Of a stretch of DNA of 64,000 nt, positions 2,364 through 52,715 are shown in pieces. Within the stretch, counting starts at the first letter, position 1. The number at the start of each line of letters is the position of its first letter. The DNA comes from Bacteroidia bacterium (GTDB taxonomy: Bacteria; Bacteroidota; Bacteroidia; J057): the NCBI GenBank assembly GCA_030430575.1, contig JAUIKF010000003.1, positions 62,001 to 126,000 of the forward strand. The letters are read 5' to 3'. A model generated the notes under the pieces. It was not told where the DNA came from and did no database searches. It saw only the letters and a program-made list of their open reading frames with translations. The position numbers and the translations under genes are program-made.

Positions 2364-4745
2364 ATGCCCCTTAGTTTTAGTAGGAAATTCCTCCTCATAG
2401 GAGTAGGTCTGTTACTGTGTTTTCCCCTTTCAAGTATTAGTCAAGCTTGGCAAACCATCACTTCTAGTACTAGTTATTCCAATCGCGATGAGCATGGCTA
2501 TGTAGAACTCTTTGGCAAATTTTACCTCATAGGAGGGGCCTATCAAGGCCTTCCCAAAGTTCAAGAATACGATCCTGCCACCAATACCTGGACTGATAAA
2601 GGCAATGTTCCTATAGGATTCCACCATATCCAGCCTGTCGCTTATGACTCGCTGATCTGGGTGATGGCTTCCTGGGAGGGCAGTTATGCTTCTGAAAATG
2701 ACGTATCTCATGTCTGGACCTATAACCCTCTGACAGACACGTGGACACAGGGCATGATGATACCTGCTTCTCGTCGGCGAGGTTCGGCAGGAGTAGTTGT
2801 TCAAGATGATAAATTTTATATCCTGGGTGGCAATAGCGGGGGCCATGGCCCTCAAGGTGATGTGAAGGATTGGGTAGATGTATTTGATCCGCATGCCAAT
2901 AACGGTGCTGGGCAGTGGGACACCCTCAGCCCCATGCCCATCGGGCGTGATCATTTTCAGGCCGTAGGCGATACAGGCAAAATATATGCGATTGGCGGGC
3001 GTGACTCAGGTACTTCTGGCAATTTTTTCGCTAATACGCGTGCACAAGTAGACATATACGACATTGCTAGTGATACGTGGACGACCCTTCCGGCGACTGC
3101 CAACTTACCTATCACAAGAGCCGGAAGCTGCAATCTCCGTATGGATCATGAAATCATTGTGATGCTAGGGGTAGGAGAAAATAGCACCGATGAGAAAGTA
3201 TCAGCCCTCGCATTTAATACCATTGCACAGACTTGGCGAAATTTACCTGATGCGCCACATTCGCGTAGTGGTACACAGGCAGTGCCTTTTGGAAGAGACA
3301 TTTATGTCGCTTCTGGGATAAATAGCCTGTTTGGGGGCGCTTCCCTAAATGAGCAAGATAAGCTTTTTGCCCCCGTTCCTGTAGTAGGTCCCCCAGAATT
3401 GACAGGGCCTGATGATGTATCAGCCGCCGATGGGCAAAGTGCCACTTTCTCCGTGTATGCCAGCTCTATCACGGCTGTCACCTATCAGTGGCAACGACTC
3501 ACAGCTCAAGGATGGAGCAATATTCCTGGTGCCGATCAGACCGACCTGGTCCTCCCAGCAGTTTCTCAAGCTGATGATAGCACCTATTTTCGTGTCGAGG
3601 CTACCAATTCTCTTGGGACCACCATATCGGACTCAGCCTTATTGACGATCCGTTGTGGGGACGTTTACTTTGGGGATGTGGAGCCTATCGTCATGGAAGT
3701 AGAGCACTATTATCGGTACCAAAGTGGCAACATCCAGGACTGGTCTCACTCTACGACTCCCAACGCCGAAGGCAGTTCTCTCGCTGCTCTGCCCAATCAA
3801 GGCACAAACCTCAACACAGGCTATCAAACCAATAGCCCAGAGTTAGAATACGACATTGATTTTGTCCATACAGGAACTTATTACGTCTGGATGCGCATCT
3901 ATGCCCCCAGTTTTGAAGACAATTCCGTGCATGCTGGTCTGGATGGTGTAGGGCTTGCAAGCGCTGATAAGATCACGTATGATACCTACAACCAATGGGG
4001 CTGGACCAACAAAACCATGGATGGCCCAGTGACGACTATTCCTGTCAACAGTACAGGTACACATACCCTCAATCTCTGGATGCGTGAAGATGGGGTGATC
4101 GTTGACCGCATTTTGCTTACACGTGATGCGAGTTATACCCCTACTGGTGCAGGACCTCCCGAAAGCGATTTTTGCTACAATTCTATTCCCTTTCCTGTGG
4201 AATGGACTTATGCAGAAGCCATCCCTGAAACAGATAAAGTAAGCATCCAGTGGGGCACTAGTCAGGAATACAACAATGCCTATTTTGAGGTACAAAGACG
4301 CCTCAATCGTTTTGAATGGATAACCATTGACGAGGTAGAGGCCCATACCTACTCCTCTGAGCCACAAGCATATCAAGCCTACGATAAGGCTCCAGAACAA
4401 GGCAAGAACTACTACCGCATCAAACAAGTGGACTTTGATGGCAAATTCGCCTTTAGCTCCATTATGGAAGTCACTTTTGAGGCAGCTCCTGTTCAGCTCG
4501 TAACCGTTGCTCCTAATCCGGTCAACGGCCATAACGTGACCGTATCTTTTGACGGACATGGAAAAGGCGCCCATATTTCTATCCTCGATTTGCAGGGGAA
4601 AATGGTGCAGCAAGTTTTTGTTACGGGCAATCAGGCCGGCACCACCGAAGCCAACGTTGACGTAAGTTCCTTGGCAAAAGGCATTTACTTCTTCCATGTC
4701 GGCAATGAAGGTTTTGCCGAGGTGAAGAAAGTAGTGGTTAACTAA
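2364..4745 (+). CDS. Secreted Kelch / Ig-like / CBM-like protein with T9SS tail
   Basis: This is a 793-residue protein with a signal peptide (residues 1-28, hydrophobic LLIGVGLLLCF, cleavage after SQA). About six Kelch blades follow (roughly 30-340), enough for a six-bladed propeller. Then come one Ig-like domain (345-432, YQWQR and YFRVEA), a CBM/GH115-C-like domain (433-600, starting EVEHYY and ending DRILLTRD), an FN3-like segment and a T9SS type A sorting domain with VAPNPVNG near 720. It is the complete paralogue of the upstream gene, 269 bases downstream on the same strand. It is probably a surface or extracellular glycan- or protein-binding propeller. No enzymatic residues are recognised. 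The start is chosen because it gives a clean signal peptide. Confidence 0.88.
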   Translation: MPLSFSRKFLLIGVGLLLCFPLSSISQAWQTITSSTSYSNRDEHGYVELFGKFYLIGGAYQGLPKVQEYDPATNTWTDKGNVPIGFHHIQPVAYDSLIWVMASWEGSYASENDVSHVWTYNPLTDTWTQGMMIPASRRRGSAGVVVQDDKFYILGGNSGGHGPQGDVKDWVDVFDPHANNGAGQWDTLSPMPIGRDHFQAVGDTGKIYAIGGRDSGTSGNFFANTRAQVDIYDIASDTWTTLPATANLPITRAGSCNLRMDHEIIVMLGVGENSTDEKVSALAFNTIAQTWRNLPDAPHSRSGTQAVPFGRDIYVASGINSLFGGASLNEQDKLFAPVPVVGPPELTGPDDVSAADGQSATFSVYASSITAVTYQWQRLTAQGWSNIPGADQTDLVLPAVSQADDSTYFRVEATNSLGTTISDSALLTIRCGDVYFGDVEPIVMEVEHYYRYQSGNIQDWSHSTTPNAEGSSLAALPNQGTNLNTGYQTNSPELEYDIDFVHTGTYYVWMRIYAPSFEDNSVHAGLDGVGLASADKITYDTYNQWGWTNKTMDGPVTTIPVNSTGTHTLNLWMREDGVIVDRILLTRDASYTPTGAGPPESDFCYNSIPFPVEWTYAEAIPETDKVSIQWGTSQEYNNAYFEVQRRLNRFEWITIDEVEAHTYSSEPQAYQAYDKAPEQGKNYYRIKQVDFDGKFAFSSIMEVTFEAAPVQLVTVAPNPVNGHNVTVSFDGHGKGAHISILDLQGKMVQQVFVTGNQAGTTEANVDVSSLAKGIYFFHVGNEGFAEVKKVVVN

Positions 4746-4750
4746 GGAAA

Positions 4751-4834
4751 GTTTTAGGTTTTAGGTTTTAGGTTTTAGGTTTTAGGTTTTAGGTTTTAGG
4801 TTTTAGGTTTTAGGTTTTAGGTTTTAGGTTTTAG
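4751..4834 (+). repeat. Tandem repeat, 12 perfect copies of GTTTTAG
   Basis: The heptamer GTTTTAG is repeated twelve times without a mismatch, beginning six bases after the stop codon of the Kelch gene. It is followed by looser related words on the opposite strand (AGAACCTAAAACCTAGAACT, about 4854-4873). It lies between convergent genes. Such a perfect array is expected to be prone to copy-number slippage. Confidence 0.97.
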
Positions 4835-4877
4835 GAAAAAGCAACATAGAACATAGAACCTAAAACCTAGAACTAAC

Positions 4878-40942: not shown

Positions 40943-42958
40943 ATGACTTTAATCTACCGCAAACTGGATACAGATTCACGGAATATCCCGTCATTGGCGA
41001 CTTTACCAGATACGCCTAATCGGCCATTTGAATTTGAACCGTTGACGATTGTCGTTCGCAAAGAGGGAACGCAATATTTCGTTGAGGCAATTGGTCCGTT
41101 TGGCGGGCGACTAGAGTCACCTACGGAGATGCCTGATTCTTCTGCCGATTCAGATGCGATGGGCAAAGCCATATTCCCAGGCAATATCGCCACTTTGTTT
41201 CAGGAACTAATCACAAAAACAAAGAAAGCAGGTCAAGGGATCCGCATACAATTAGATTTCCGGGGAGAAGCAAAAAGCTATGCCATCTGGCCATGGGAAT
41301 CGATGCGCTTGAATGGAGAATACCTATTGGCAAGTCCCCATATTAGCATCGCCCGAACCATCTCCTCACATCGACCTGCTTTGCCCTTTGGAGATACAGA
41401 GCAGCCCTATCGTTTGCTGTTTCTGATGACTTGCCCCCGCGATATCCCTGGTGAGAATAAAGGTCAAATTCCAGATATAAAAGACTCGATCGAAAAGGAT
41501 TTAACTTTTATCCGAAAAGCCCTATCCACACTTGAACAAGATGGATTGCTAGAAATAACCGTCCTGAAAGATCGAGAGGCAACGTTAGCCAACCTCCAAA
41601 ACGAGCTAAAAAAGGAGAATTACCAAGCGCTTTTTGTTTCGGGCCATGGGATGTATGGGAACCGTCAAGATGCCATAGAAAAAGGAGAAAAGTGGACTAC
41701 AGGTGATGATGGAGCCTTGGTATTCGACGATGGGACAGGCGTAGCGCACCAAGTCTTTGGGGCAGACCTCCAAAAAGATTTAGTTGATAGTTCTGTCCGG
41801 TTGGTGTTTATCAATACGATGCATACTGCCTACGGGGCAAGCCCACAAGGAGAAGGGGTCGCAGAAATGCTCTTGGAGGCCGGGATTCCCGCCGTGATCG
41901 CTTTTCAGGACCAAGTGTACACGCATTGGGCCAGTGAATTTGCGGGTGAGTTTTTTACGACCCTCACCCACCTTAATTCTTTAGAATTAGCCCTTCTTGC
42001 AGGCAGAAAGGCCATTCTTGAAAAAGATAAAAAACACTGGAATTACCCGATACTTTTTACCCGCTTTCTTGAAGGCGCCAAAGTATTTTCAGGTGAAATA
42101 GGTGGTAAAATTTCGGCCTTTGTCAATGCAGACGGGGAAGTTGAAATTGTGGAACAAAAGCAAAACGAATCTGAAGTTGACATTTTCAATCGCCAATTAA
42201 AAAGCCTCAATGGGCTGTTGCAAGATGTCGATGACCTGGAAGCCCGGACGCAGGTCCAAAATCAGATTCTGAATGCCACGCGCCAACTCCAAAAAGATGC
42301 AGACAAGGCCATCAATATGCTCTCTGATTCGACTATGATGGCGGTAGGCGCCATTAAGAAGCAGCAAGCTATCGAAGTTCAACAGGCAGCAAAAACCAAA
42401 GCCGACCAAACGGCGAAAGAGGCGCGTGAATTATTGGGGAAACGCAAGCAGATAGAGCGGACCGTCGTATTGCTTTTGGGAGTCATCATGGTTGCTGTAG
42501 TAGGTATACTGGCCTCCTTCCTAGATGAGAAAGCAGAATTGGGCGTTTTGGGCCTGCCGCTACCTGTAGTTTTGTGGAGTTTTATTGGTGGGGTTGGTGC
42601 GACTCTTTATGCTTTTGTCGGCACCCAAAAGTATACCCAAACAGAGCCCCTTAGGCTCGACTGGCTGATCGGGCGGCCTATTGTGGGAATCATCATGGGA
42701 TCTGTGGTCTACCTAGCCGTAGCAGCCAGTCTTACTGCCGTAGGCAGCGCGCCTGTAGACGCAGTAATAGCAGATGTACCTGCAGAGGCTGTAGTCGGAG
42801 ACGGGCCAGTAGATTCTTCTGAAAATACTCCCAAACCCTACCTGCTTTGGGCCTTATCCTTCATCGGTGGCTTCAGTGACAAATTTGCGATTTTACTGTT
42901 TGATAATTTGGTGGGGAAATTTACGACTGGTCAGAAGAAGGAAGACGACGACGATTAA
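40943..42958 (+). CDS. Membrane CHAT-domain protein lacking the catalytic cysteine
   Basis: A 671-residue protein with no signal peptide. Residues about 150-385 form a CHAT (caspase-like) domain. The catalytic His motif is present as VSGHGMYG (H235). The strand that normally reads LNACxTA/LNACxSA reads INTMHTA, so Met293 replaces the nucleophile Cys. The following EGVAEMLLEAGIPAVIAFQ and LALLAGRKAI are typical CHAT. A coiled-coil-prone region (about 405-505) leads to four TM helices (about 506-527, 535-560, 580-601, 632-652) and an acidic tail. It is predicted to be cytoplasmic, anchored by the C-terminal membrane domain. It likely works as a non-cleaving binder, sensor or regulator. It is the first of two CHAT genes at this locus. 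Confidence 0.83.
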   Translation: MTLIYRKLDTDSRNIPSLATLPDTPNRPFEFEPLTIVVRKEGTQYFVEAIGPFGGRLESPTEMPDSSADSDAMGKAIFPGNIATLFQELITKTKKAGQGIRIQLDFRGEAKSYAIWPWESMRLNGEYLLASPHISIARTISSHRPALPFGDTEQPYRLLFLMTCPRDIPGENKGQIPDIKDSIEKDLTFIRKALSTLEQDGLLEITVLKDREATLANLQNELKKENYQALFVSGHGMYGNRQDAIEKGEKWTTGDDGALVFDDGTGVAHQVFGADLQKDLVDSSVRLVFINTMHTAYGASPQGEGVAEMLLEAGIPAVIAFQDQVYTHWASEFAGEFFTTLTHLNSLELALLAGRKAILEKDKKHWNYPILFTRFLEGAKVFSGEIGGKISAFVNADGEVEIVEQKQNESEVDIFNRQLKSLNGLLQDVDDLEARTQVQNQILNATRQLQKDADKAINMLSDSTMMAVGAIKKQQAIEVQQAAKTKADQTAKEARELLGKRKQIERTVVLLLGVIMVAVVGILASFLDEKAELGVLGLPLPVVLWSFIGGVGATLYAFVGTQKYTQTEPLRLDWLIGRPIVGIIMGSVVYLAVAASLTAVGSAPVDAVIADVPAEAVVGDGPVDSSENTPKPYLLWALSFIGGFSDKFAILLFDNLVGKFTTGQKKEDDDD

Positions 42959-42980: not shown

Positions 42981-43193
42981 TCAACCATAGATACACACCA
43001 ACAGACCTAACCCTATAAATACATTCAGCATCAGAAAAGAAAAAAGCGAAAAGAGGAAGTAAAAAATGTAGCGTTCACTTTGGCTTTCTTTATTCCCTAT
43101 GATCCCCAAATAGCTAATCAAAAATACTCCTGCATTTGCACATAAAGAAGCGATTTTGACAATACTTTGGTAGATGAAGAAAGCTATTTTCAT
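42981..43193 (-). CDS. Possible small two-TM membrane protein
   Basis: The 70-residue open frame on the minus strand between the two CHAT genes encodes two hydrophobic helices (SIVKIASLCANAGVFLISYLGII and YIFYFLFSLFSFLMLNVFIGLGLLVCIYG) joined by a polar loop. It overlaps the first 20 bases of the TPR-CHAT gene on the other strand. Coding is uncertain. The hydrophobic pattern is better than expected by chance, but no relative is recognised. Confidence 0.35.
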   Translation of the reverse strand: MKIAFFIYQSIVKIASLCANAGVFLISYLGIIGNKESQSERYIFYFLFSLFSFLMLNVFIGLGLLVCIYG

Positions 43194-46100
43194 AAGGGGT
43201 TGGTCAATTTGGTCAATAAGAAAGAAAGGTAGTCATTCTTATAACGGTCACATTCTCCCTTTCATTTTTTTCATCCCATGCTTATTGGCATTGAATATAG
43301 CTTCTGCTCAACAGCTTCCCGAGCGAGTGATCGCCGACAGTTTGTATGTTCAGGCGGGAGAATTTGCTGCGGCGGCAACTCTTTATCGGCAGTTAGCCGA
43401 AAGATGGGAGAAACGAGGTCGAAAGGACAGTGCGTTCCGCAATTACTTCTTTCAGGCCAAGGCCCTGAGTCAGTTAAGCGAATGGGAATCCGCTTTGAGC
43501 ATCTGCGAAAGCCTAACGCTGCCCGTTTGGGCTGATTATGGCCATACCCACACCGTGGATTTATACTTTGAGATAGGATATATCCAGGCCAATTTGGGGA
43601 ATATCAAGGCTGCAATCGTCTCGTATGATCGAGCGCTGATGGAAGAAGGGCGTGCAGACCTGGCCGATTCTATTAAACTGGCTGACATACAGCAATTCAA
43701 AGGAGTTGCCCTGATGTATGATGGGCAACCAGAGGAAGCCTTATCATTGGCTACAGAAGCGCATCAGATTCGCCTTCGACACTGGCCCCAAGACACCCTG
43801 GCCTTGGCCTACAGTGCCAATAATCTCAACCTCCTGTACAGCGAACGCTACCAATATGAAAAAGCGAATCATTATATAGCAGAAGCTGTACGAATCGCCA
43901 AGCTCCGCCTTTCTCCAACTCATCCTCATATTGCTTTTTTGTTAAATAACTACAGTACATCCCGTCGTAATATGGGAGATCCATTGGGTTCCCGCACGCT
44001 TTTACTGGAAGCTGTAGAAGCGAATAAAGCATCAAATAATGCCTATAATCTGGCCATGAATTATTACAGCCTGGGAAATCTGTATACAGATCTGAGAGAA
44101 TTTGACCAGGCTCAAACCTATTTCACCTACGCCTTCCAGATTGGGGATACCCTCTTTGCCAATCCCAGCCAGAACCGGGCAAATATTCATGATGGGATGG
44201 CCCGAATCGCCATTTATCAAAAGCATTTTGAAGAAGCTGAATCCTATTTGAAATTAGGATTGGCCCAAAAACGCCAATTAGGAGACAAAGAGTCGCTTGA
44301 AGTCGCTCGGACTTACAATAGTTTGGGAACTGTGGCCATGGAAACCCATGCCTGGGAAACGGCCTTGGCCTATTTCGAAAAAGGTTTTCAACTCCGTTTG
44401 CCAAAATTGGGCGCTAACCATCCGCTTACGCTGGAAAGTCGGTCAGGAATGGCCTCCTGTCTATGGGAATTGAATCATGCTCCTCAATCGCTGGAAATAT
44501 GGAAAGACTGTCTGCTCAAACTTAGACAAGACCAAAAAACTAGCTTTCAAGGCATTACAGAATTATCCCTTTGCCTGGCGGAGGCGTATGGAGAATTGGG
44601 ACAGGTAGATAGCCTTCAGGCCTATCTGAAAATCTCCTGGTCTAGTATTATGGGGCTGGAAAAACCCATTCAAAGTTGGAATGAGTTCGCCCAATATGAT
44701 ATTGTCCAGCTCAATCCCATCGTATTTGACCTTATTCTTTTTCATTTAGCTCAATTACGAGAGCAGGCGGGACTGGAAGTGGAAGAGAAAGTCTTCATTT
44801 GTGAACAAATGGTTGAGAAGCTATCAGACTTTCTTCCTCGCTTTTTACCGCTGATCGTTTATCAAAACATGCAAAATGAACTTGCTCAAAGTTTGCAACA
44901 GATTTACGCAAGTACTGCCTTAATTGTCCATAGAGGAGCAGGGCTCCAAGCACCCCAAAAGCAGGAATTCCTGCTTAGCTGTTTAGAGAATAGCAAGGCT
45001 TTCTCAATTCGAATAGCCCTGCAAAATCGCTCTGCGATCCAATTTGTCAACTTGCCTGATTCCATCTTGCAACAAGACCGCCAGCTTCGCGCGCGTATTT
45101 GGTCTATGTATTCTTTGAAAGAATCTGACTCTCCTCCAAGTCAGGCTGCCCTTATCAAAGAGGACCTAAACCTCAAAGATGAATGGAGCCTTTGGCAAAA
45201 AAAACTGGCTCAGGCCTATCCAAAATATCATCAATTACTCTATGAAAAAACGCCTTTTGACTTCCAAACAGTCCAAAAAGATTTACTCGACGAAAAGGAA
45301 TCTATCCTTGCCTACCTACAAATAGATTCTATCATGCTGGCAATGACTTTTGATGGGGAAAGAATGTTCACGGTAGAATTACCTTTTTCTACTTCTTTCC
45401 AAGATAGCCTACTCCTATTCAATCGACTGATAGCCCAACGGGCAGCCAAAAAGCAGATTGCCCATTTGGGCCATCAAGTGTATCAGGCGCTTTTTGCGCC
45501 TCTAGCCTCCAGGATTACCCCCAAATTGATCATTTTTCCCGATGAACTCCTTCACCAACTAAATTTTGAATTACTCGTCTCAGCTCCGCATGAGGCAGGA
45601 CAAATTCCGTGGCTGGTCAATACATATGAAATTCGCTATGCAAACCATTTTCATAAGACCGATACCGATTTTGCATATGGGGAGGACCATTTGATCATTG
45701 CACCTGGATTCTCGGCTGAGGTTAAACAAGCTTATTTGTCCCAAATTCAAGCTGGGCAAATCGTCGATTCCGTTTTCCTTCAATGGCTAAGCACGCCCTG
45801 GTCTGAAAAGCTCGCCCGAGAACTCGCTGTGAAAGAGAAGGCTAAGGCGCTTCTAGGGAGTGAGGCTAGCCAGAAAAACCTTTCAGCATCGGTTGAAAAA
45901 GCGAATATCCTTCACTTTGCTACGCATGCAGTTGTGAATGATTCAGTCCCCTTAAATAGTTTCCTTGCGCTATATCCTGATCCAGCTGGCGCGAATGACG
46001 GATTTCTGTTTGCGCATGAATTATATGGGATATCGCTCAAAGCTCCTTTGGCCATTTTGGCAGCTTGCCAGTCTGGGCGGGGGACTTATCAGAAGGGAGA

Positions 46101-46452
46101 AGGCGTTCTGTCTTTGGCTCACGCCTTTCAGTTTGCAGGTTGTCCCAACCTGCTTTATAGCCTTTGGAGCATAGACGACCAACAGAGTAATCTTCTGATG
46201 GAAGATTTTTATCAGCAGATTGACCGTGGCCAATCTATCTCTGCAGCCCTTCGACAAGCCAAACTCAACTATCTTAAGACCCATGAAGGAGAAGTTAATC
46301 ATCCATATTATTGGGGGGGATTGGTCCTTTTAGGGGATAATTTGACGATCAAAAAATCTTTTTGGGATGCCAGTAAATGGGCGTATTTGGCTGGTTTTCT
46401 GTGGTTTATACTAATAGTCGCATATTTTTTGAAAAAAAACCGAAAATCGTGA
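43174..46452 (+). CDS. Periplasmic TPR-CHAT protease, C-terminally membrane-anchored
   Basis: A 1,092-residue protein with an N-terminal signal peptide behind a longish basic leader (hydrophobic about 28-44, cleavage near ASAQ). Tetratricopeptide repeats fill about 50-480 (GKIALYR-type units such as MNYYSLGNLYTDLREFDQAQTYFTYAF and ARTYNSLGTVAMETHAWETALAYFEKGF). A helical linker follows. The CHAT domain (about 790-1060) has its dyad intact: HFATHA (H918) and LAACQSGRG (C965). SLAHAFQFAGCPNLLYSLWSIDD is typical CHAT. A final TM helix (about 1069-1085) with a KKNRKS tail anchors it in the inner membrane with the protease in the periplasm. It is followed by a sigma/anti-sigma pair, suggesting a regulatory protease. 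Cleavage target is inference. Confidence 0.87.
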   Translation: MKKAIFIRGWSIWSIRKKGSHSYNGHILPFIFFIPCLLALNIASAQQLPERVIADSLYVQAGEFAAAATLYRQLAERWEKRGRKDSAFRNYFFQAKALSQLSEWESALSICESLTLPVWADYGHTHTVDLYFEIGYIQANLGNIKAAIVSYDRALMEEGRADLADSIKLADIQQFKGVALMYDGQPEEALSLATEAHQIRLRHWPQDTLALAYSANNLNLLYSERYQYEKANHYIAEAVRIAKLRLSPTHPHIAFLLNNYSTSRRNMGDPLGSRTLLLEAVEANKASNNAYNLAMNYYSLGNLYTDLREFDQAQTYFTYAFQIGDTLFANPSQNRANIHDGMARIAIYQKHFEEAESYLKLGLAQKRQLGDKESLEVARTYNSLGTVAMETHAWETALAYFEKGFQLRLPKLGANHPLTLESRSGMASCLWELNHAPQSLEIWKDCLLKLRQDQKTSFQGITELSLCLAEAYGELGQVDSLQAYLKISWSSIMGLEKPIQSWNEFAQYDIVQLNPIVFDLILFHLAQLREQAGLEVEEKVFICEQMVEKLSDFLPRFLPLIVYQNMQNELAQSLQQIYASTALIVHRGAGLQAPQKQEFLLSCLENSKAFSIRIALQNRSAIQFVNLPDSILQQDRQLRARIWSMYSLKESDSPPSQAALIKEDLNLKDEWSLWQKKLAQAYPKYHQLLYEKTPFDFQTVQKDLLDEKESILAYLQIDSIMLAMTFDGERMFTVELPFSTSFQDSLLLFNRLIAQRAAKKQIAHLGHQVYQALFAPLASRITPKLIIFPDELLHQLNFELLVSAPHEAGQIPWLVNTYEIRYANHFHKTDTDFAYGEDHLIIAPGFSAEVKQAYLSQIQAGQIVDSVFLQWLSTPWSEKLARELAVKEKAKALLGSEASQKNLSASVEKANILHFATHAVVNDSVPLNSFLALYPDPAGANDGFLFAHELYGISLKAPLAILAACQSGRGTYQKGEGVLSLAHAFQFAGCPNLLYSLWSIDDQQSNLLMEDFYQQIDRGQSISAALRQAKLNYLKTHEGEVNHPYYWGGLVLLGDNLTIKKSFWDASKWAYLAGFLWFILIVAYFLKKNRKS

Positions 46453-46589
46453 TGACCTTTTTGTTGGTGCTGCAATAGAGGGGCAAATGGTATCATTTCG
46501 GTTCTTTGACAAAATCGTGCGCTATCTTTATTTGAGATGAAATATGCATATCTCTCATTAGCAGTGATATTCGTACTTTTACGTCCGAC

Positions 46590-47171
46590 ATGTCGAATAG
46601 CTTTTCTTCGCACAAAAATCTAGAAACACTTCCTGATCAGGAACTCTATCAGGGTTTATTGAACAACCATAGATCATCTATAAGTCAGCTCTATCGGGAA
46701 GTTTATCCCATGGCAAAGGCGCAACTGATGCGCATGGGAGCCAATGAAGAGGAAGTAAAAGATGCTTTTCAGGAAGGAATGGTGGCCCTTTGGAAAAACA
46801 CCAAACAGGGCAAATTCCAGTTACAAGCTGAGACCAAAATGAGTACCTATCTGATCCAGATATGCAAAAACCACTTCCTGGAAAAAAAACGAAAGTTGCC
46901 TAACACAGGAAGTCTTCATCCAGACCAGCAAGTTGAGCGCTTAGCGGAAGACAATTTTTTGGATCATTGGTTCAAAAGGGAAGAGATGGAACAGCTTTCC
47001 AAGCATCTTCGCATGCTCGGTGAGCGATGTCAGAAGCTGCTCAAGCTATTTTATTATGAGCGAGAGTCGATGAGGGAGATTGCTTTGGAGATGAATTTGG
47101 GCGAAGCTAGTGCAAAGAATGAGAAATATCGATGCATGCAAAAACTTAAAAAGACTTACGACTTAGGGTAA
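46590..47171 (+). CDS. ECF-type sigma-70 factor of the CHAT locus
   Basis: A 193-residue sigma factor. Region 2 is seen in EEVKDAFQEGMVALWKNTKQGKF and TYLIQICKNHFLEKKRK. Region 4 is LGERCQKLLKLFYYERESMREIALEMNLGEASAKNEKYRCMQKLKKTY, with the helix-turn-helix. It lies 137 bases after the TPR-CHAT gene, and its stop is one base before the anti-sigma-like gene. The tight coupling to a one-TM protein is typical of sigma/anti-sigma pairs. Confidence 0.9.
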   Translation: MSNSFSSHKNLETLPDQELYQGLLNNHRSSISQLYREVYPMAKAQLMRMGANEEEVKDAFQEGMVALWKNTKQGKFQLQAETKMSTYLIQICKNHFLEKKRKLPNTGSLHPDQQVERLAEDNFLDHWFKREEMEQLSKHLRMLGERCQKLLKLFYYERESMREIALEMNLGEASAKNEKYRCMQKLKKTYDLG

Positions 47172-47172
47172 T

Positions 47173-47886
47173 ATGGAGTCCAGGGACCAGGAACGAATTG
47201 ACGCTTACCTCATGGGCAAGCTAGACGAAAAGGCCAGGCAGGCCTTTGAGGAGGAAATAAATGAATCGCCTGAACTAGCAGAAGCAGTCGCTCAACACAG
47301 TCGATTTGTGCATGGAGTCGAGGAGCTTCACTTTCGTGAGTTGTTAGAAGAATTACATCAAGAGGGAGTTGGGCAGGAAAAAAATGGAATAAAAAGAAGA
47401 AAACGATGGCCTATATGGAGCATAGCAGCAGTGCTCCTCCTTTTATTAGGTGTTTTCTGGATATTTCAGCCGAATCCTACATCAGAATTCTCCATCCAAC
47501 TGGATCCTGGTTTACCTACGACTTTAGGTGGTACAAACGCACTAGCATTTGGGGAAGGTATGAATGCCTATAAGCAAGATGATTACGTTTCTGCCAGGGC
47601 ATATTGGACCCCCTTATGGGAAGCCCATCCACAGAATGACACCTTGTTGTTTTATCTGGCCCAAGTGGACCTGGGAGAGGAAAGATTTCAGGCTTCATTG
47701 GAAAAATTGGAACAGCTTATCAAAAATGAGGAATCGGGCTTTCTGGAGAAAGCAAGGTGGTATGTAGCTTTATCTCACCTCAAATTAGGCCAAATAGAGG
47801 CTGCCAAGGCTTTATTACAGGATATTTCAACACGGCAACATCCCAAATCAAAGGAAGCGCAAGAACTACTAAAAACCATCCCTTAA
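47173..47886 (+). CDS. One-TM anti-sigma-like protein with periplasmic TPR tail
   Basis: The 237-residue protein starts one base after the sigma stop. Residues 1-70 are a soluble helical domain (ERIDAYLMGKLDEKARQAFEEEINESPELAEAVAQ) of the kind that opens Bacteroidota anti-sigma factors; the HxxxCxxC zinc motif is absent. A KRRKR stop-transfer patch (74-78) precedes one TM helix (about 80-98). About 120-237 carries two to three TPR-like units (ALAFGEGMNAYKQDDYVSARAYW; LFYLAQVDLGEERFQASLEKLEQLI; ARWYVALSHLKLGQIEAAKALL). Topology puts the TPR tail in the periplasm, the same compartment as the TPR-CHAT protease. Confidence 0.82.
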   Translation: MESRDQERIDAYLMGKLDEKARQAFEEEINESPELAEAVAQHSRFVHGVEELHFRELLEELHQEGVGQEKNGIKRRKRWPIWSIAAVLLLLLGVFWIFQPNPTSEFSIQLDPGLPTTLGGTNALAFGEGMNAYKQDDYVSARAYWTPLWEAHPQNDTLLFYLAQVDLGEERFQASLEKLEQLIKNEESGFLEKARWYVALSHLKLGQIEAAKALLQDISTRQHPKSKEAQELLKTIP

Positions 47887-48016: not shown

Positions 48017-49600
48017 ATGAAAAACATTCAATTATGTATCCTTTTATGCCTCAGCCTTTCTATAAGTCAGGCCCAAACTGCCTTACAAAAAGTCCTATCC
48101 ACAGATTGGACCTCCGGGGACCAATTTGGTCGTGTCGTGGCGATGGATGGGCATACAGCTATTGTAGGGGCAAAACAAGAAAGCCATGATGTCAATGGGC
48201 AAAATGAAAAAGCAGGAGCAGGCGCGGCTTATATCTTTGAATTTGATAGCCTTTCCAATTCCTGGAACCAGCTCCAAAAGCTTGTGGCATCTGACCGTCA
48301 GGGAGGGGACCAGTTTGGCTTTTCTGTGGCCATAGAGGGAGATTATATCCTGGTAGGGGCGAACAAAGAAGACGAAGATGAAAATGGGATGAATACAGCA
48401 AATGATGCGGGATCGGTTTATGTGTTTGAAAAAAATGCGAATGGTATGTGGGACGAGGTTCAAAAGCTGGTTTCTTTTGACAATCGAAGGCCCGGTCAGG
48501 AATTTGGGCGGGCAGTAGCGTTGGAGGGAAATGCTGCCTTCATAGGAGCTTATCACGAAGGGACGGGCTCCAATCCCTCCTCTACTTTTTGGCAAGGCGC
48601 AGTATTTGTGTTTCAACGGGATGCAAATGGCGTTTGGACCTCATTCCAGAAAATCAAAGCCAATAATATTGGATATGCTGCCGAATTTGGCAGTTCAATC
48701 TCTGTCGATGGACGTCTCATGGTAGTAGGGGCGCGAGGAGAAAGAAGAGATGCAAATGGGCAAAATACCCTCACAGGAGCAGGGGCCGCCTATTTTTTCC
48801 ACCAAAATGATACTTCTGGCTTGTGGGAATATGTGCAGAAGGTAAGTAGCCCTTACCGCGCTCAGAACAACCTTTTTGCTGAATCTGTTTCCCTCGACGG
48901 TACTTTTGCCGTGGTAGGTGATGCAAAACAGGATTATGACTCCACGGGTATGGACCCCCAAAATTCTGCAGGTGCTGCTGTAGTTTATCAAAACCAAAGT
49001 GATGGTTCCTGGAGACAAGTGGCAATGCTGGTATCTCCATTTCGATCTGCTAACGCTTTATTTGGGCATTCAGTCTCTATCAGTGAGGATCAGATCCTTG
49101 TAGGCTCTCCTAGAGCTGCGCTGGATGCCAACGGAGACAGTTCATTGAGCAGAGCTGGGGCTGCCTATTTGTTTGCAAGGGATCCTCAGGGAGATTGGTT
49201 ACTAACTGAAAGTATAACTGCCACAGACCGCCAGGTACAAGCAGAATTTGGAGACGAAGTATGTATACAAGCAGGCAGAGTTGCGATCGCCGCAAAGGAA
49301 CTAGAAGCCGTTTACCTCAGTGTTCAAGCACTCAATAACACATCCCTTTTAGGAGATATAGGGAATATGAAGATTTCTCTGTATCCAAATCCTTGCGAGG
49401 ATTATATCATCCTTGAAACACCCTTATCCAGTTATCATGCTAGCTTCTATCATGCGAATGGTCAACTATTGAGAACCTATACACACCTATTCAAAAATAC
49501 CAAACTTAGCATTAGCCACCTTCCCCCAGGTTTATATTTCATAAAGATATTTACCCCTCAAACACACCTATCAACCATCCAAAAAATCGTCAAGCAATAG
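48017..49600 (+). CDS. Secreted seven-bladed FG-GAP propeller protein with T9SS tail
   Basis: The 527-residue protein has a signal peptide (1-20). Seven FG-GAP-like blades follow, each with a (D/E)xFGxxVxxxG strand (DQFGRVVAMDG, DQFGFSVAIEG, QEFGRAVALEG, AEFGSSISVDG, NLFAESVSLDG, ALFGHSVSISE, AEFGDEVCIQA). Most are followed by a DxNGxN...AGAAYxF loop that could bind calcium. Seven blades make a complete integrin-alpha-like propeller. The C-terminus (ISLYPNPCEDYIIL...PGLYFIKIF) is a T9SS type A sorting domain. It sits 130 bases after the anti-sigma-like gene on the same strand and may be the envelope output of the sigma factor. Confidence 0.88.
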   Translation: MKNIQLCILLCLSLSISQAQTALQKVLSTDWTSGDQFGRVVAMDGHTAIVGAKQESHDVNGQNEKAGAGAAYIFEFDSLSNSWNQLQKLVASDRQGGDQFGFSVAIEGDYILVGANKEDEDENGMNTANDAGSVYVFEKNANGMWDEVQKLVSFDNRRPGQEFGRAVALEGNAAFIGAYHEGTGSNPSSTFWQGAVFVFQRDANGVWTSFQKIKANNIGYAAEFGSSISVDGRLMVVGARGERRDANGQNTLTGAGAAYFFHQNDTSGLWEYVQKVSSPYRAQNNLFAESVSLDGTFAVVGDAKQDYDSTGMDPQNSAGAAVVYQNQSDGSWRQVAMLVSPFRSANALFGHSVSISEDQILVGSPRAALDANGDSSLSRAGAAYLFARDPQGDWLLTESITATDRQVQAEFGDEVCIQAGRVAIAAKELEAVYLSVQALNNTSLLGDIGNMKISLYPNPCEDYIILETPLSSYHASFYHANGQLLRTYTHLFKNTKLSISHLPPGLYFIKIFTPQTHLSTIQKIVKQ

Positions 49601-49664: not shown

Positions 49665-50312
49665 CTATTCTCTTTTTTTAGTCCTCCCCTCTTCAAGCTC
49701 CTCAAAATAGTGGTTATATGTGACCATTGCATCTGGGGTCAGGTAAGGGGCTAAAAGTCCACAGCATATCTTCATATAATGAACCAGCATAGCTTGGTCA
49801 TTGGCATAGGCGTTTAGTTCTGCATCGAGGGCCCAGAAATTATTGAGGATTTGCCCTACATTAACCATTCGCTCAATTATGTGCTCATCTACTTCTTGAG
49901 TTAGGATACCTTTATGTTTATAAAAAAGGATCATGTCCCTTGCCAGTTGACGCTCCGCCTGCCTATTTTGCTGATATAGTGTGCGTACAGCTTCATTATT
50001 TGTCAAGATTTCAAATAGGTTCAAAAAAAAGAATTTATATTTTTTTTGAATTAAAAATAGCTGCTTATGTGTTTCCAAATAGGAAAGGACTCCTACTTCA
50101 AGGTGTTTCAACTGTTGGGCTATTTCCATTATTTCTGCTTGCATCATCTCATAAAGTCGAAGCACAACTACCTGGCTATCAGGGAAATGATATGAATAGC
50201 TCCCAGGGCTTATACCAAGCTCTCGGCAAATTACCCGAGCGCTGACCTTCTTCATTCCTTGTACATTATACAATTGCCTTGCAGCCTCTAATATTTGGGC
50301 TTTTGTATCCAT
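49665..50312 (-). CDS. TetR-family transcriptional repressor
   Basis: A 215-residue protein started at MDTKAQILEAARQLYN; the longer frame to 50366 would run through the operator and add an unlikely leader. The N-terminal helix-turn-helix is typical (KKVSARVICRELGISPGSYSYHFPDSQVVVLRLYEMM). The rest is an all-helical ligand-binding domain. It is divergent from a small membrane-protein gene, and a doubled palindrome lies between them. It probably represses itself and that gene. Ligand unknown. Confidence 0.9.
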   Translation of the reverse strand: MDTKAQILEAARQLYNVQGMKKVSARVICRELGISPGSYSYHFPDSQVVVLRLYEMMQAEIMEIAQQLKHLEVGVLSYLETHKQLFLIQKKYKFFFLNLFEILTNNEAVRTLYQQNRQAERQLARDMILFYKHKGILTQEVDEHIIERMVNVGQILNNFWALDAELNAYANDQAMLVHYMKICCGLLAPYLTPDAMVTYNHYFEELEEGRTKKRE

Positions 50313-50330
50313 ACATAAACTTAGGCAATC

Positions 50331-50376
50331 TCGTACACTTGTACAAGTCTTCACAAATTCGTACACTTGTACAAGA
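50331..50376. promoter_or_regulatory. Doubled palindromic operator, probable TetR-regulator site
   Basis: The 17-base unit TCGTACACTTGTACAAG occurs at 50331-50347 and 50359-50375, 28 bases apart. The first contains the perfect palindrome ACTTGTACAAGT (50337-50348); the second keeps CTTGTACAAG. It lies between the start codons of the divergent TetR and membrane-protein genes. Confidence 0.85.
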
Positions 50377-50396
50377 CTTATTTAACCCCTCCGCAT

Positions 50397-51510: not shown

Positions 51511-52143
51511 CTACGCCACCATCTTCCGCTGCAAAATAAACAAAGAGTGCTCTTTGGAGGTGATCGTCACGCTGTGTGGAACGTGAAGGGGAATGGCCAT
51601 GTAATCGCCCTCGTTCATGTCATTGACGTATTCACCCACTACGCAGCGGCAGGAGCCTTTGAGGACGAGAAATTTCTCAACCATGTCGTCGTGGATTTCT
51701 TCCTCAACTTTTCGCTTGGTGAGGACCATGAGGGTGACTTTTTGGGCGTCCTGACCAAGGACATGGGTGAAGTGTTCGCCAAAATTGGCGGGCGGCTGGA
51801 CCGCAGCTGTGAGGGATCGCCAGTATGGGAGATCGGCCGCTTCATTGAGGTCTGGCAAGCCCTCAGGAATAGAATCCGTTGAATCCTGATCCGTTAATTT
51901 TTTTTTTGAGGCGCCCGCTTCAATGGTTGCCAAAAGCTGCGTTTTGAGGGAGGCAGGCGGCGCCTTGGCATGTGCCATGGCATAGCCTTCCAGGGCCTCC
52001 ATGATCGCATCCAGTTCTGCCTGGACTTGTGGATAAATCGCTGCAAAGCGTGCTACTTCCTCCGCCTCTACAGCAGTAAGCTCGCCCATCACATATTGTT
52101 CGAGCACGCCAGAGCTTATATATGCTTGTATATCTTCCATCAA
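51511..52143 (-). CDS. ChrR-like cupin anti-sigma factor
   Basis: The 210-residue protein has an N-terminal anti-sigma-like helical domain (about 1-55, DIQAYISSGVLEQYVMGELTAVEAEEVARFAA) without the HxxxCxxC zinc motif seen in ChrR. The C-terminal cupin (about 110-205) has candidate metal ligands H151, E156, H187 and H190 (EEIHDDMVEKFLVLKG; IPLHVPHSV). Its ATG overlaps the sigma-factor stop by four bases. In known ChrR proteins the N-domain holds the sigma and the cupin senses a stress signal. The same split of roles is inferred. Confidence 0.85.
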   Translation of the reverse strand: MMEDIQAYISSGVLEQYVMGELTAVEAEEVARFAAIYPQVQAELDAIMEALEGYAMAHAKAPPASLKTQLLATIEAGASKKKLTDQDSTDSIPEGLPDLNEAADLPYWRSLTAAVQPPANFGEHFTHVLGQDAQKVTLMVLTKRKVEEEIHDDMVEKFLVLKGSCRCVVGEYVNDMNEGDYMAIPLHVPHSVTITSKEHSLFILQRKMVA

Positions 52144-52715
52144 AGCATGATTTTTCGAAGTTCTTGAATGGCCTTACGCGACCGAGTCTTGACCGTTCCC
52201 AATGGCAACGCTAATTCCTCTGCCACTTCTGCCTGGGTATAGCCCCCAAAATACATCAAATCAATGATTTTGCGATACTTGGGCTGTAATTTGGCCACGA
52301 TTTCAGGTAGCCCTATATGATCGATATTTAGCACAGAAGCACCCATCTTGGCTGTTGTCAACACGTCTCCCCTCTCCATCAGACTTTGCTGCTTTTGATG
52401 CTTGGATCGTATTTTATCAATGGCCGCATTGCGAGCGATACGCAGCAACCAGGTGAAAAGGCGGCCTTTTTGGGGCTTATAGTCTTTCATCCGACTCCAT
52501 ATTTTCATAAAAGCTTCTTGCAACACATCCTGAGCTACCGCTTCATCCTGCACGATCCGCACAATCACCCCATACAGGGCTGGGGAATATCTATCGTACA
52601 ATTCCGACAAAGCGGATTTGTCCCTGTCCACCACACGGGTGACAAGCTGCAACTCCTGATACCCTGCCCCCTGGGCGGGTTTCACATGTGGGGAAGTCAT
52701 CTTATATTCCTTCAT
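52140..52715 (-). CDS. ECF-type sigma-70 factor paired with cupin anti-sigma
   Basis: A 191-residue sigma factor. Region 2 is AVAQDVLQEAFMKIWSRMKDYKPQKGRLFTWLLRIARNAAIDKIRSK. Region 4 is LQPKYRKIIDLMYFGGYTQAEVAEELALPLGTVKTRSRKAIQELRK, with a textbook helix-turn-helix. The sequence is close to the SigK/EcfG-like group often paired with ChrR or RskA-type anti-sigmas. Translationally coupled to the cupin anti-sigma. An internal ATG at residue 6 is an alternative start. Confidence 0.92.
   Translation of the reverse strand: MKEYKMTSPHVKPAQGAGYQELQLVTRVVDRDKSALSELYDRYSPALYGVIVRIVQDEAVAQDVLQEAFMKIWSRMKDYKPQKGRLFTWLLRIARNAAIDKIRSKHQKQQSLMERGDVLTTAKMGASVLNIDHIGLPEIVAKLQPKYRKIIDLMYFGGYTQAEVAEELALPLGTVKTRSRKAIQELRKIML

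Follow-up and report, generated by a model that had tools for sequence, protein, structure and literature searches.

The window analyzed here is a 64,000-nucleotide stretch of DNA from a Bacteroidia bacterium, in which three consecutive forward-strand genes encode a TPR-CHAT protein, an ECF sigma factor and an anti-sigma-like protein with a single transmembrane segment (TM), the last two separated by one base. The genes had been described in these terms in an earlier note made from the sequence alone, and both the Pfam matches and the coordinates agreed with that description. A full CHAT domain was matched at 3.5e-52 after an array of TPR_12 repeats (43174-46452), sigma70-ECF was matched at 9e-21 (46590-47171), and the third protein (47173-47886) gave a weak NF052375 'antisigma' match (1e-5) in addition to TPR. 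With an N-terminal domain, a TM and a predicted periplasmic part, this protein and the adjoining sigma factor have, as judged from sequence, the makeup of an ECF/one-TM anti-sigma pair. The features of the locus are as follows.

43174..46452, + strand: predicted TPR-CHAT protease gene, 1092 aa (signal peptide, TPR array, CHAT domain, C-terminal TM)
43174..43308, + strand: predicted signal peptide, residues 1-45 (hydropathy, sequence)
45466..46338, + strand: CHAT domain, residues 765-1055 (Pfam PF12770)
45811..45813, + strand: Leu880, predicted S1-pocket specificity residue, Glu when the partner is Arg-type (covariation)
45925..45927, + strand: His918, catalytic (invariant among aligned CHATs)
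46066..46068, + strand: Cys965, catalytic (invariant among aligned CHATs)
46372..46449, + strand: C-terminal TM and basic tail of the TPR-CHAT protein (hydropathy)
46590..47171, + strand: ECF sigma factor gene, 193 aa (ECF sigma model matches)
47173..47886, + strand: anti-sigma gene, 237 aa (N-terminal cytosolic domain, one TM, periplasmic TPR)
47410..47466, + strand: anti-sigma TM, residues 80-98 (hydropathy)
47467..47532, + strand: unstructured juxtamembrane linker of the anti-sigma, with a conserved DPGLPTTL-G motif
47524..47529, + strand: predicted scissile bond Leu118|Gly119 (P1|P1') of the anti-sigma
48017..49600, + strand: FG-GAP repeat protein with a T9SS sorting tail, module membership uncertain

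Directly upstream of the TPR-CHAT gene lies a second CHAT gene, without TPRs (40943-42958), whose product has hydrophobic C-terminal segments and no signal peptide. On the other side, the FG-GAP/T9SS-tail protein is a possible target or cue of the module. Further away in the window, a 26-bp near-repeat containing CGTACACTTGTACAAG (50326-50379) overlaps the start of a TetR-family gene (49665-50366) and is probably its operator, a GTTTTAG heptamer array sits just past a gene end (4737-4848), and a second, unrelated ECF sigma is found with a cupin-type (ChrR-like) partner (51511-52715).

Hydropathy backed the topology that had been read from the sequence, with a signal peptide (ending ...NIASA) and a C-terminal TM followed by KKNRKS in the TPR-CHAT protein, and a single TM at residues 80-98 of the anti-sigma. 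The same type of call gave an N-terminal signal peptide and, at the C terminus, a TM followed by basic residues in nearly all CHATs linked to such anti-sigmas in other loci, and one TM with the TPR part outside in the anti-sigmas of the family. The His918/Cys965 dyad had also been assigned correctly, and was intact in every CHAT aligned. AlphaFold2 models were obtained at pLDDT 83 for the TPR-CHAT protein and 86 for the anti-sigma; the solved folds closest to the CHAT model were Csx29 (8EEY) and then DdvA, with separase also near.

The lack of a conserved linkage between the TPR-CHAT gene and the sigma/anti-sigma pair in relatives had been named beforehand as an outcome that would refute the idea that the CHAT cuts the anti-sigma. 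Instead, linkage was conserved far beyond chance, with variable orientation. In the host genome itself (8.16 Mb), roughly 30 TPR-CHATs and roughly 26 anti-sigmas of the window type were counted. An anti-sigma of this type is found no more than 8 kb away from 14 of the 30 TPR-CHATs, where 1.5 were expected (P 5e-11), and the genome contains about 15 such modules, including the one in the window. In three relatives the corresponding counts were 8/22, 8/13 and 5/13. An anti-sigma profile search covered 296 Bacteroidota genomes. Among its hits were 41 anti-sigmas from 17 genomes of other families, and 31 of these had a TPR-CHAT within 9 kb, matched one-to-one (expected 0.5), with 16 of the pairs divergent, 9 convergent and 6 co-directional. 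Within the host's class, the two families also tended to occur together: both were present in 27 genomes, the anti-sigma only in 6 and the CHAT only in 4, the number of genomes with neither being a lower bound, which makes the Fisher value for this co-occurrence approximate. About a quarter of the anti-sigmas, and half of the host-genome CHATs, were without linkage, and some of the linked pairs that lie 5-7 kb apart may not be true partners. Mirror-tree correlations were weak (CHAT versus sigma, r 0.33; CHAT versus the anti-sigma TPR, r 0.35; not the N-domain), and the approach was rejected as evidence on its own and retained only as support. For TPR-TPR pairing, put forward in the earlier note as a possible recognition surface, the weak tree correlation was the one observation in point.

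Linkage of this kind could also arise if the CHAT were an output of the pathway, i.e., a sigma target made together with secreted T9SS cargo and acting on other surface or envelope proteins, with shared regulation as the only connection. Many loci do have the CHAT and T9SS cargo genes in a divergent operon opposite the sigma pair. However, the linkage holds when the CHAT is convergent or in the same operon with no cargo between, and shared regulation does not predict the residue-level match between the CHAT and the anti-sigma linker that is described below. We therefore regard a pure output role as unlikely, although the CHAT could be both a sigma target and an input. Genes for secreted proteins with a T9SS tail, in some cases more than one, are found repeatedly between the sigma pair and the TPR-CHAT, and their slot is taken in other families by a PKD-DUF7619-DUF7849 protein about 650 aa long (loci L107, L120, L121, L132; L147, L167, L176). 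It is plausible that the T9SS-tailed surface proteins recurring beside the modules are targets or cues.

In L063 (5010-8285), a non-TPR CHAT of 599 aa and a sigma/TPR anti-sigma pair lie in divergent orientation, 85 bp apart, and other CHAT types may therefore serve such pairs. Outside the host's class, most TPR-CHATs are without the C-terminal tail anchor and several lie beside ftsY, and as a group these proteins were not taken to belong to this module, although some of them do lie near sigma pairs. In L193 and L204, both from genomes outside the class, exported TPR-CHATs without a tail anchor adjoin ftsY and a CDP-alcohol phosphatidyltransferase gene.

The linker between the TM and the TPR part of the anti-sigmas is unstructured and contains, across the family, one residue with two states: mostly Arg before a small residue, and otherwise Met or Leu before Ser or Gly. 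We sorted the linkers into Arg and Met/Leu classes from their own alignment, and every CHAT column was then tested against this class. The column of window Leu880 was acidic in 44/44 CHATs with Arg-type partners versus 1/16 with Met/Leu-type partners (P 3e-13; 2,334 tests), and the next-best CHAT column reached only 4e-5. In a reverse scan, for which the initial pairs were combined with further loci, all anti-sigma columns and amino acids were compared with acidity at the Leu880 column, with no presorting (1,350 tests). The best association was Arg at the column of window Leu118, found in 64 of 70 partners of acidic-S1 CHATs and in 0 of 23 partners of non-acidic ones (P 1.3e-16). The runners-up were Met and Leu, again at the Leu118 column, while single columns of the sigma factor, used as a control, reached 5e-6 at best. 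Among the further loci, Glu was present in all 22 with a clear Arg-type linker and Phe in the one with a Leu-type linker. An automatic rule for Arg anywhere in the linker gave a weaker result (59/68 concordant, P 4.5e-8) and was set aside as noisy.

An acidic S1 residue is the general rule in Arg-specific proteases of the caspase fold, and the pattern at the Leu880 and Leu118 columns is, at the level of aligned residues, that expected of a protease S1 pocket and the P1 residue of its substrate. We infer from this covariation, rather than from geometry, that residue 880 lines the S1 pocket. Several loci did not fit the pattern: L221 and L228 combine a Lys-type linker with a non-acidic S1 residue, L225, L128, and L215 have Glu at the S1 column and no Arg in the linker, L130 (a distant pair) has Met with Glu, and L046 has Arg with Ser. 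The 21 readable CHATs from outside the class all had Glu at the Leu880 column, and the aligned residue of Csx29 is His rather than an acid.

Since related loci share history, sequence counts overstate the covariation. Shared ancestry might thus mimic coupling, in which case the CHAT and the anti-sigma would be mere neighbors and a general protease would cut the anti-sigma. Well-supported branches of the tree contain only 2-3 independent switch pairs, so few that a sign test on independent pairs was dropped, and unlinked anti-sigmas have similar linkers, for which reason the linker motif was also rejected as a marker of CHAT linkage. Yet about five branches of the best tree co-switch both residues (branch test P 1.7e-5), and the association is confined to one column in each protein, where it stands far above the other columns and the sigma control. 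Ancestry without coupling thus appears quite unlikely to us. The residue match would, on the other hand, be the same if the linker bound the S1 pocket without being cleaved, serving as a pseudo-substrate or dock to hold or inhibit the CHAT in the way securin holds separase, the covariation then reflecting binding rather than cutting. However, P1 is commonly followed by Gly or Ser, as in a cleavable site, and the catalytic His and Cys are kept in every aligned CHAT; we consider docking without cleavage very unlikely.

The window pair belongs to the hydrophobic side of this pattern, with Leu880 in the CHAT and Leu118 in the anti-sigma. Its CHAT clusters with those of L122, L125, L150, L153, and L170 (support 96), and L239 resembles this subgroup in gene order and linker. 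A search of named genomes yielded 77 subgroup loci, mostly from Flavobacteriaceae (e.g., Winogradskyella, Psychroserpens, Gelidibacter, and Dokdonia). An anti-sigma was found co-directional in 64 of these, and in 59 of the 77 it lies upstream of the CHAT, the spacing between the two genes being usually -19 to 24 bp. All 64 loci with an anti-sigma had Met at P1 (usually DPGLPTTM) together with Leu, Ile, or Val at S1, and PDPGLPTTM was the most conserved 9-mer in the subgroup anti-sigmas, proteins that average 46% identity. Ten Aequorivita loci (L283, L284, L287, L290, L293-L295, L299, L300, and L302) contain subgroup CHATs without a recognizable anti-sigma nearby, and these CHATs instead adjoin genes for proteins of about 303, 312, and 360 aa.

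Because of the linkage, the matched topology, the intact catalytic residues, and the S1-P1 residue match, we think it probable that the TPR-CHAT protein acts as a dedicated, membrane-tethered periplasmic site-1 protease for the neighboring anti-sigma, the genes together forming an envelope-signaling module. At rest, the ECF sigma would be held in the cytosol by the N-terminal domain of the anti-sigma. A cue at the envelope or surface, probably sensed through the TPR array of the CHAT protein itself, would trigger cleavage of the unstructured juxtamembrane linker at Leu118|Gly119, between the TM and the TPR part. A general site-2 protease of the M50/RseP type and cytosolic proteases would then free the sigma factor, whose targets may include the neighboring T9SS surface proteins and the module itself. 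The host genome encodes an M50 site-2 protease family member (PF02163, 199 bits), which would presumably act in this pathway. We infer the cleavage itself, the cue, the site-2 step, and the sigma targets, and site-1 cleavage in the periplasmic juxtamembrane region is predicted from the covariation and the conservation of the linker. In the earlier note, sigma release was proposed to begin when the CHAT protease, itself periplasmic, cleaves the anti-sigma within its periplasmic part. The linkage, the topology, and the S1-P1 covariation support this proposal well, but the site it had placed in the TPR tail moves: the candidate site, which is conserved, falls within the linker ahead of the tail.

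The module had also been likened to the output of type III-E CRISPR systems (Craspase; Csx29/Csx30/CASP-sigma), and here the parallel held for mechanism and function and failed for membership. As in that output, a TPR-CHAT protein with a His/Cys dyad is present and would cut a sigma inhibitor; cleavage of Csx30 falls between residues 427 and 429 and is blocked by deletion of Met427 (PMC10028731). Craspase, however, is RNA-guided, cytosolic, and CRISPR-encoded, whereas the window proteins are predicted to be periplasmic. The module had rightly been called CRISPR-free, as no CRISPR-like repeat array was found in the 64 kb, and Cas7-11 was not among the matches of the Pfam-scanned genes, which comprised the module and its neighbors. 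Nor was Csx30 among the Pfam or PDB fold matches of the window anti-sigma, a one-TM protein with a TPR tail, which Csx30 is not.

The closest known case is DdvA of Myxococcus xanthus, a transmembrane anti-sigma (PDB 8ROT/8RW5; chain annotated as a CHAT domain protein) for the ECF sigma DdvS (PMC4374960). DdvA has His and Cys at the positions aligned with those of the window CHAT. DdvA combines the anti-sigma and the TPR-CHAT in one polypeptide, whereas the window encodes two proteins with a separately anchored CHAT and a conserved linker site between the anti-sigma TM and TPR; nearly all linked CHATs begin with a signal peptide rather than an anti-sigma domain, i.e., they are not fusions of the DdvA type. 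The predicted cut also resembles DegS/RseA-type site-1 proteolysis, in which a one-TM anti-sigma is cut in the periplasm near the membrane, but DegS is a PDZ serine protease, and here a caspase-fold cysteine protease with matched specificity is encoded beside the anti-sigma gene. For the ECF54 group, CHAT, subtilase, and carboxypeptidase proteins encoded near ECF genes have been proposed to act by proteolysis (PMC8999054); that proposal concerns ECFs without an anti-sigma, whereas here the anti-sigma is the predicted substrate. Regulated anti-sigma cutting, CHAT control of sigma in type III-E systems, and the single-chain anti-sigma/CHAT of DdvA are thus already known. No description of the two-protein Bacteroidota arrangement with a matched specificity code was found in the open-licence literature that was searched.

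In a wider sense, we lean toward the view that caspase-like site-1 proteases, periplasmic and tethered to the membrane, form a large family in Bacteroidota, and that an S1-P1 code (Glu pairing with Arg; hydrophobic residues pairing with Met or Leu) fits each of them to an anti-sigma of its own. Such a code would help to insulate ten or more parallel ECF sigma pathways per cell. For this large class of Bacteroidota sigma-factor pathways, which is apparently undescribed, the present analysis proposes which protease acts, on which substrate, and at which single bond it is predicted to cut, and it gives TPR-CHAT proteins outside CRISPR systems a testable job. It also points to a wider pairing of CHAT proteases with sigma inhibitors, of which the Craspase sigma output and DdvA would be two examples. 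The S1-P1 match yields predictions for paralogous modules within one genome and, if true, raises the broad question of how numerous copies of one signaling module are kept insulated within a cell.
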